From assembly GCA_017483605.1 (NCBI GenBank), contig JAFUWG010000011.1, positions 1 to 49,842 on the forward strand: a stretch of DNA of 49,842 nucleotides. Direction: 5' to 3'. The notes under the pieces were generated by a model. The model was given only the letters and a program-made list of their open reading frames with translations, ran no database searches and was not told the origin of the DNA. The position numbers and the translations under genes were made by a program. The stretch is from Bacteroidaceae bacterium. Lineage in GTDB: Bacteria > Bacteroidota > Bacteroidia > Bacteroidales > Bacteroidaceae. This document shows positions 3,468 to 4,876 of this stretch, in pieces. The first letter of the stretch is position 1. Each line of letters begins with the position of its first letter.

Positions 3468-3626
3468 ATGGACAAGAAATTGTATTTAGAGCCAGAAATG
3501 GAAATTGTGAACATTGCCTTTGAGGCAAGCATCCTTGTCGGCTCCGATCCTATCGGCGAAGAGGGTGGTGAAATCGGCGGCAAAACTGTTGACACAGAAA
3601 CACCAGGTTGGGACGACCAATTCTAA
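3468..3626 (+). CDS. Small 52-residue acidic protein, unknown function
   Basis: This short gene encodes a 52-residue protein beginning MDKKLYLEPEMEIVNIAF and ending PGWDDQF. The pattern is a 'Y..P.ME.V.I' head, a middle 'ILVGSDP', then a Gly/Glu/Asp-rich tail. I recall many unannotated Bacteroidales small proteins of this shape (K.Y..P...V......LL.GS, then an acidic Gly-rich tail). It lacks a signal peptide and a transmembrane segment. It sits 97 bases after the LRR gene and ends 21 bases before a strong terminator, so it is transcribed as its own unit or as the tail of the LRR transcript. Function unknown. A peptide precursor cut at the Gly-Ser is one idea, but no modifying enzyme is nearby. 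Confidence 0.65.
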   Translation: MDKKLYLEPEMEIVNIAFEASILVGSDPIGEEGGEIGGKTVDTETPGWDDQF

Positions 3627-3690: not shown

Positions 3691-3771
3691 AATCAAGCAC
3701 CTACTTCCTTCCACAAGAAGTCTTTTGAAATCAAAGAAAAACACTCTTTTTTCAATTTTCCCTTGAAATAT

Positions 3772-3802
3772 TTTGTCTGTTCGGAAAAAGGTTGTACCTT
3801 TG
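3772..3802 (+). promoter_or_regulatory. Bacteroidetes-type promoter of the AbiF RNA/gene unit
   Basis: A -33 TTTG at 3772-3775 is separated by 19 bases from a -7 TACCTTTG at 3795-3802. Both boxes and the spacing fit the Bacteroidetes primary sigma factor. Transcription should start near 3808, just before the structured RNA and 57 bases before the start codon. Confidence 0.85.
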
Positions 3803-3805
3803 CAA

Positions 3806-3856
3806 CACGAGAACCCGCCAAGCCTCTCCACGATGCTTAAATCGGCGGGTCGTTTT
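3806..3856 (+). ncRNA. Structured RNA upstream of the AbiF-family gene (abiF RNA-like)
   Basis: The RNA between the promoter and the gene folds into ACCCGCC (3813-3819) paired with GGCGGGT (3844-3850), enclosing a second stem AAGC/GCTT (3820-3823 with 3835-3838) and an 11-base loop CTCTCCACGAT. The GAG near the 5' end could pair with CTC in that loop as a pseudoknot. CGTTTTATTTT follows, so the outer stem can also act as a terminator that limits read-through into the gene. I recall a conserved 'abiF RNA' motif reported upstream of Abi_2-family genes; the position and fold here fit that, but membership is not tested. Confidence 0.65.
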
Positions 3857-3864
3857 ATTTTGTT

Positions 3865-4758
3865 ATGGCACATTATACAAAGACATACTCGTCACCCAGT
3901 CAATTGGTGACCTTGTTACAATCGCGTGGCCTCCATGTTTCGGATGTTGCACGGACGGAAAACTATCTCCGCCACATCGGGTATTACAGATTCAGTGCAT
4001 ACCTCTATCCTCTTCTGAACACACCGAAAGAGAGCCATGTGTTTAAAACTGGTGCTACGTTTAATCAGGCGTTGGATATGTACCGTTTCGACAGGCATTT
4101 GCGACTGCTGATGTTCAATGAGATTGAAAAGATAGAGATTGCCGCCCGTAGTGCCATTGTCAACATCACAAGCCGAGAGGCAGGGAATCCATTTTGGATG
4201 ACAGACCCGTCGTGCTTTTATGATACAACGACCTTTATGAAGACAAAGCAACTCATCGATGTTGAGTTGGCCAAGTCGCGTGAAGATTTCATCGAGCATT
4301 TCCACAACACTTATTCTGACCCATATCCTCCTGCATGGATGTTGGCGGAGATTCTTCCCTTGGGCGTCTTGACCAAGATATATGACAACATCAAGAGTAA
4401 TCAAATCCGAAAGAAGATAGCACAAGAGTTCTCTTTGAGTGTACCAGTCTTTAACTCATGGATGACAATTATTACTGTTGCCAGAAACAATTGTGGTCAT
4501 CATGCCCGCGTATGGAACCGCACATTTGCATTGAGGGTCCTGACACAGCGACGTATGGTACGTCCTTGGCTAATGATTCCTGTCAATCAGAAGAAAGCCT
4601 ATTTCAGCCTATGCATCATCAAGTATTTCTTGAACATCATTTCTCCAAATAACGACATGAAGGCAAAAATTGATGTACTGTTGTCCACTTACCCATCCAT
4701 TGACATAAACGCCATGGGATTCCCCTGCGGATGGGAAACGGAGCCTTTGTGGCAATAA
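3865..4758 (+). CDS. Abi_2/AbiF-family protein (HEPN-type abortive infection protein)
   Basis: A 297-residue cytoplasmic protein of the Abi_2 family (AbiD/AbiF), linked to phage abortive infection. Family hallmarks are the N-terminal 'LLQSRGL', 'YLRHIGYYRFSAY', the helix 'FDRHLRLLMFNEIEKIEIAAR' region (residues 75-95) and the C-terminal 'VARNNCGHHARVWNR' (206-219). In the last, R207-N-x-x-x-H212 fits the HEPN RX4-6H ribonuclease signature. It has its own promoter (3772-3802), a structured RNA leader and a terminator at 4845-4876, so it is a stand-alone unit between unrelated genes, as expected for a defence or toxin-antitoxin module. RNase activity, and restraint by the upstream RNA, are inferences. 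No partner protein gene is seen. Confidence 0.85.
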   Translation: MAHYTKTYSSPSQLVTLLQSRGLHVSDVARTENYLRHIGYYRFSAYLYPLLNTPKESHVFKTGATFNQALDMYRFDRHLRLLMFNEIEKIEIAARSAIVNITSREAGNPFWMTDPSCFYDTTTFMKTKQLIDVELAKSREDFIEHFHNTYSDPYPPAWMLAEILPLGVLTKIYDNIKSNQIRKKIAQEFSLSVPVFNSWMTIITVARNNCGHHARVWNRTFALRVLTQRRMVRPWLMIPVNQKKAYFSLCIIKYFLNIISPNNDMKAKIDVLLSTYPSIDINAMGFPCGWETEPLWQ

Positions 4759-4844
4759 TTCCCTCTGCAAAATTTGGAGGAGATGAAGGATAAGAAACTT
4801 TTCTGTAAAGGGCATTGCAAGAATAAGAAGAAGAACCAGAATAG

Positions 4845-4876
4845 CACCCGTACACGAGTTAATTTGTGTACGGGTG
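4845..4876 (+). terminator. Terminator after the AbiF-family gene
   Basis: CACCCGTACAC (4845-4855) pairs perfectly with GTGTACGGGTG (4866-4876) across 10 bases; TTGTATGATT follows. The second arm overlaps the start of a dispersed repeat. Confidence 0.7.

Follow-up and report, generated by a model that had tools for sequence, protein, structure and literature searches.

A probable AbiF-family toxin gene behind a single-hairpin abiF RNA in a rumen-type Bacteroidaceae bacterium, and free-standing abiF RNAs as possible decoys in phages

PbAbiF-AbiFr, an AbiF protein paired with an RNA antitoxin, was reportedly described by Zilberzwige-Tal et al. in Cell in 2025. Experiments in PMC12373285 show that the C. 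difficile AbiF is toxic and that its RNA, RCd22, acts in two ways, cutting read-through in cis and neutralising AbiF in trans by binding the protein. Residues R202 and H207 of the C. difficile protein are needed and align with R210 and H215 of PbAbiF, a pair that is needed as well (PMC12373285). The complex of the Prevotellaceae AbiF is described as a dimer with one RNA per monomer (PMC12737573, PMC12373285), and the review PMC12737573 identifies PDB entry 8VZ6 as this complex of PbAbiF and its ncRNA. Passages in PMC12165695 and PMC12737573 trace the presumed ancestry of Cas13 to the family of AbiF. AbiF with an RNA antitoxin is already a published kind of system, and the locus described here adds a further member.

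The window that we analysed is a stretch of 49,842 nucleotides from a Bacteroidaceae bacterium. An earlier sequence-only reading had noticed an RNA and an AbiF gene within 3772-4876, and our analysis confirms this observation: in this rumen-type bacterium, a small gene that likely encodes an RNA-cutting toxin is preceded by a tiny RNA that probably restrains the toxin. We consider it very probable that the locus is a toxin-antitoxin unit of the AbiF kind, in which the short RNA would hold AbiF until infection frees it and growth is arrested. All features of the unit lie on the forward strand. The elements TTTG (3772-3775) and TACCTTTG (3795-3802), which together we take to be a promoter of the Bacteroidota type, bear out the promoter that had been read upstream of the RNA. 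The corresponding TAnnTTTG box keeps a near-fixed distance from the RNA core across the 42 RF03085 loci in 101 genomes, at 19 nt in 32 of them and at 18 or 20 nt in two; it was not found in the other eight. The RNA core ends at 3850 and the abiF reading frame starts at 3865, which gives the 14-nt gap claimed earlier and places both behind one promoter.

Between the putative antitoxin RNA and the toxin gene, the outer stem of the RNA is followed by a T-rich tract (3853-3861), the likely end of the short RNA; all 42 RF03085 loci have 8-13 T within the 18 nt 3' of the core. Downstream of abiF, a 3' flank (4758-4876) is 91% common to another unit of the genome, at C7. The terminator that had been assigned to the gene finds a counterpart there in an inverted repeat (4845-4876), but the repeat lacks a T-run, and a simple terminator scan, which takes loops of 3-8 only, calls neither it nor the RNA hairpin. 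From their sequence, both elements may serve as terminators. Ahead of the abiF unit, a small ORF (3470-3626, beginning MDKKLYLEPEMEIVNI) separates it from a gene of the BspA-type leucine-rich repeat kind.

The RNA belongs to the 'abiF RNA' family that the earlier reading had named. The covariance-model search proposed at that stage places RF03085 at 3814-3850 on the forward strand, scoring 58.5 bits where the gathering score is 37 and covering 37 of 37 model positions, as the sole Rfam match at gathering score within the window. Our own model, R1, scores 59.3 bits at 3810-3854, and the single match to each model agrees with a single hairpin without repeats. Folding 3814-3850 recovers the two stacked stems of the earlier description (-15.1 kcal/mol, z -2.97; one of 200 shuffles was equally good). 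An outer stem (3814-3819 with 3844-3849) continues into an inner stem (3820-3823 with 3835-3838) that carries the terminal loop (3824-3834), and an AAATC bulge (3839-3843) lies on the 3' side between the two.

Covariation, whose absence among homologues was to speak against the unit, is present in both stems, with changes on both sides in 8 of 11 pairs. The alignment was made from sequence alone (MAFFT) with 33 of 36 distinct RNAs; the three set aside have an insert, a duplication and a very divergent sequence, respectively. It includes a second site in locus L141 and RNAs whose gene runs off the contig. The covariation score is 0.322, against 0.127 when shuffled and at most 0.085 with partners slid; where the inner stem begins, at its base, pair 11-35 is unpaired in 21 of the 33 RNAs. 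A possible pseudoknot between loop and 5' end did not hold up, since the pairing is no better than with shuffled partners (mean run 3.38 vs 3.21 over 24 units, with 253 of 2000 shuffles as high). An extra outer pairing between the leader and the T-tract side appears in the fold of the window RNA and is absent by eye in most relatives.

Dimerisation, RNase action, direct binding, growth arrest and read-through control are all taken here from homologues, and the activity of the locus is presumed. Transcription from the promoter at 3772-3802 would yield a short RNA of about 3808-3861, most transcripts stopping at the T-tract behind its outer stem and a minority continuing into abiF. The AbiF dimer would cut RNA through R207 and H212, and one abiF RNA per monomer would keep it inactive. 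Infection, the presumed trigger, would stop the supply of RNA, so that the toxin would be freed and growth would halt. By analogy with these homologues, the earlier proposal that the RNA may bind and restrain the toxin while limiting read-through is supported, and a single RNA unit without repeats fits the solved complex with its one RNA per monomer.

It could instead be argued that the RNA is only a cis-acting attenuator, a riboswitch-like leader that sets read-through into abiF without binding the toxin. A hairpin and T-tract 14 nt ahead of the start codon would suit such a role, and a cis effect of that sort is described in C. difficile (PMC12373285). However, homologous RNAs bind the protein and act in trans (PMC12373285, PMC12737573), the loop and bulge of the core are conserved among the aligned RNAs far beyond what termination requires, and in phages abiF RNAs occur by themselves, with no abiF gene that they could attenuate. 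Attenuation without toxin binding is therefore very unlikely in our view.

The protein encoded at 3865-4758 (297 aa) agrees with an RNA-restrained toxin. It matches Pfam Abi_2 with 180.1 bits and PADLOC AbiD with 210.5 bits; a search of NCBIfam gave no match. The one PDB sequence that it matches is 8vz6_A, over residues 4-297 (E 4.6e-124). The RNxxxH motif of HEPN ribonucleases, noted earlier from R207 to H212, is present as RNNCGH at residues 207-212 (codons at 4483-4500), and a motif of this form occurs in all 63 Abi_2 proteins compared.

A tree of these 63 proteins shows a 100/100 split between seven rows that lack an RNA and 56 rows; an RNA stands ahead of the gene in 55 of the 56 and in none of the seven. 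Tree labels were assigned by regular expression, with four unlabelled rows (L111, L121, L127, L143) judged by eye; the 55 include two RNAs split by an insert (L127, L142), one hairpin seen by eye only (L082) and one that scores 24.7 bits with R1 (L083). The RNA-bearing clade is also marked by a C-terminal tail, GFPCGWETEPLWQ in the window protein (4717-4755). A GFPxxW..PLW-like tail is found by regular expression in 50 of the 55 RNA-bearing rows and as a close variant in the other five, and is missing from all seven RNA-less rows. The 40 rows whose RNA has an AAAU bulge, the type found in the window, form one protein clade (100/100): RNA type follows protein clade.

The pairing has exceptions. 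Locus L052, on a long branch within the RNA-bearing clade, has the tail and no RNA that we could find, which counts against the toxin-antitoxin reading. The full-length AbiF of L127 and of L142 behind a split RNA likewise counts against an obligatory antitoxin, which does not predict it unless the RNA still folds or the gene is silent. An insert also splits the hairpin upstream of AbiF in L132, whose ORF ends at 232 aa; L132 and L142 encode different AbiF proteins, yet their inserts are almost alike and interrupt the RNA at one and the same position. R1, built partly from the same RNAs that it then finds, reports 63 places in 42 of 101 genomes, and RF03085 searches report 42 places in 35 of 101. 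According to a citation in PMC12804078, the Cell 2025 work already includes other models of AbiF RNA, and we do not claim this wider set as new.

Four RNA units with three intact toxins occur in this one genome, in the window, at C10:36068, at C25 and at C7; the C10 toxin is broken by a stop at codon 19, and the RNAs at C25 and C7 are unreported by the RF03085 genome search. A fifth Abi_2 gene (C10:34811-35377), about 1.2 kb before the broken unit, has no RNA and belongs to the RNA-less clade. The four units share a 93-bp promoter cassette (3712-3804 in the window), with copies 98, 97 and 91% identical at C7:492-584, C25:12526-12616 and C10:35981-36056, respectively; five further matches to the cassette are short (34-60 nt, 75-85%). 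The window AbiF is 36-37% identical to the C7 and C25 proteins and 65% identical to the C10 protein, and the end of the abiF gene and its 3' flank are likewise partly common to units of the genome. The upstream stretches are 0.84-0.98 identical in the six pairs within this genome. Between genomes (1921 pairs, promoterless orphan loci included) the mean is 0.43 and the 95th centile 0.65; 26 further within-genome pairs, from other genomes, range from 0.01 to 0.91 and are mostly less alike. This suggests that RNA-toxin cores may have been exchanged between kept flanks in this genome, or the flanks gene-converted.

A match to pepP is present in 19 other genomes, and among the 16 congeners compared none has anything similar to the abiF stretch upstream of pepP (in two of them only 406-534 nt could be compared); the unit is accessory. 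It might have lost its function in this strain and be in decay, as the broken copies in many relatives and the C10 copy could indicate. The window copy, however, retains a full ORF, the catalytic motif, and a promoter and RNA as in relatives of at most 90% protein identity, and we give decay even less credence than attenuation alone.

RNAs without an intact toxin are common in relatives. The 63 places found with R1 comprise 24 with an intact AbiF, nine with a broken one, nine with a remnant, 16 with none and five cut by a contig end. This frequency counts for an antitoxin role, since an antitoxin RNA should often be met where no intact toxin is left; target size accounts for part of the excess, a gene of 900 nt being damaged far more often than an RNA of 45 nt. 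Some of the toxin-less bacterial loci have lost the promoter, and the bacterial orphan RNAs gave us no evidence of selection: the two orphan pairs shared across two species (L031/L073 and L242/L243) lack a promoter box, and their flanks are just as conserved, as judged by eye, and no common other gene was seen downstream in 17 loci inspected by eye. In two loci (L069, L241) all that is left of AbiF is its last codons, no more than 34 nt after the orphan RNA; these appear to be deletions of the toxin gene body with the RNA kept.

The abiF RNAs of phages are mostly free-standing. The window's RNA type has a 23-nt core, AAGCCTCTYNACRATGCTYAAAT, that occurs in 91 IMG/VR stretches (L244-L334), against no match for a reversed-pattern control. 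AbiF stands behind it in two of these; the other 89 are orphans, although 15 of them have less than 1000 nt of downstream sequence available and two (L286, L326) have a tblastn match elsewhere in the stretch. Abi_2 is absent from 48 of 50 whole contigs chosen from the 91 and searched, the L286 contig being among the 48. A second core occurs in 67 IMG/VR stretches (L385-L451), with AbiF behind it in three, and seven further loci are from named phages (L335, L336, L343, L344, L346-L348). An AbiF peptide-pattern search of the viral contigs, which reaches close relatives only, found none. A third RNA type was set aside and stands outside the phage count: its 36 pattern matches, over 17 fixed bases with a gap, are likely to include chance matches, R1 supports 10 of them, and its stem mean is 1.72 pairs against 1.89 shuffled, at an offset that does not suit it.

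These phage RNAs keep their outer stem by compensation, because mean pair numbers exceed those obtained when flanks are shuffled among loci. For the 80 unique sites of first-core orphans, with 53 different 5' arms, the mean is 5.51 pairs against 2.84 (maximum of 1000 shuffles, 3.46), and nine sites have three pairs or fewer; for the second core, it is 6.23 against 3.72. Only 23 of the 80 have TTTT soon after. RF03085 scores above its cut-off in 15 of the 20 phage loci given to it, comprising 8 of 12 IMG/VR loci and all named phages but Mimi (7 of 8), namely Acinetobacter phage Acj61, Roseobacter phage CRP-143, Aeromonas phage T7-Ah, Synechococcus phage S-SZBM1 and mycobacteriophages LittleE, Lolly9 and Aziz. 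Several of these carriers presumably belong to lytic families. S-CREM1 also carries an abiF RNA (PMC9964418), and the passages on it there and in the review PMC12197685 name the RNA and leave its role open.

A BLAST search with the core CTCTCAACGAT (E up to 10) returned 61 INPHARED records, 51 of them Mycobacterium phages; the 61 include RefSeq/GenBank doubles, and the weakest could be chance. They share no first name with the 53 INPHARED records in which tblastn finds AbiF, save the catch-all 'Bacteriophage'. The RNA adjoins tRNA genes in Aziz, S-SZBM1, Lolly9 and Mimi. With near-identical contigs included, the first core lies within 300 nt of a tRNA in 31 of 89 orphans against 10.0 expected from random positions in the same stretches, and the second core lies near one in 16 of 67 against 5.3 expected. 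In two phage contigs (L247 7826-8219, L297 2255-2648) ARAGORN calls a permuted tmRNA whose start overlaps the core. Two others (L304, L312) contain two tandem abiF-like hairpins, the first core and one just before it, an arrangement that resembles the two-motif RCd22 of C. difficile.

On balance, we lean towards reading the free-standing phage abiF RNAs as decoy antitoxins that would disarm host AbiF, a widespread RNA-based counter-defence. Phage phiTE sets a precedent: its pseudo-ToxI RNA disarms a system with an RNA antitoxin (PMC3475682). The RNA may instead serve a role inside the phage, or AbiF may use it to sense infection. Among the open-licence papers searched, we found no account of abiF RNA without a toxin serving as counter-defence. 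Should the phage RNAs be decoys, this would explain why phages retain abiF RNA, would point to AbiF as a defence that is strongly selected, and would supply natural inhibitors of it. A specialist may find the phage RNAs unexpected, the kind of unit itself being known. The window unit offers a clear single-hairpin case close to an AbiF with a solved RNA complex, and with four RNA units of different types and three intact toxins in one genome, the specificity of the pairs is directly testable.

Compared with known systems, the phage RNAs resemble the phiTE pseudo-ToxI (PMC3475682) in being antitoxin-like RNAs without a toxin; that RNA is of another family and experimentally shown, whereas the phage abiF RNAs are known from sequence only. 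The unit itself resembles type III toxin-antitoxin systems (ToxIN, AbiQ, TenpIN, CptIN) in placing an RNA antitoxin ahead of the toxin gene, and probably in securing an excess of RNA through limited read-through (PMC12373285). It differs from them in its HEPN toxin, as opposed to the ToxN fold, and in its single hairpin without tandem repeats, a pseudoknot between loop and leader being unsupported. Like C. difficile AbiF-RCd22 as described in PMC12373285, it has an abiF RNA motif before an RNxxxH toxin gene and one promoter shared by both, and the C. difficile RNA acts in cis and in trans. RCd22, in contrast, consists of two abiF motifs and a separate terminator hairpin, where the window has one motif whose outer stem is followed by the T-tract, and the C. 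difficile system is prophage-borne, where the window unit lies between chromosomal genes. PbAbiF-AbiFr of Prevotellaceae (PDB 8VZ6) has another sequence, and the window pair is known from its genome sequence alone; as far as the accounts of that complex go, the two share a homologous full-length toxin, the same HEPN residues and one RNA unit per toxin gene.
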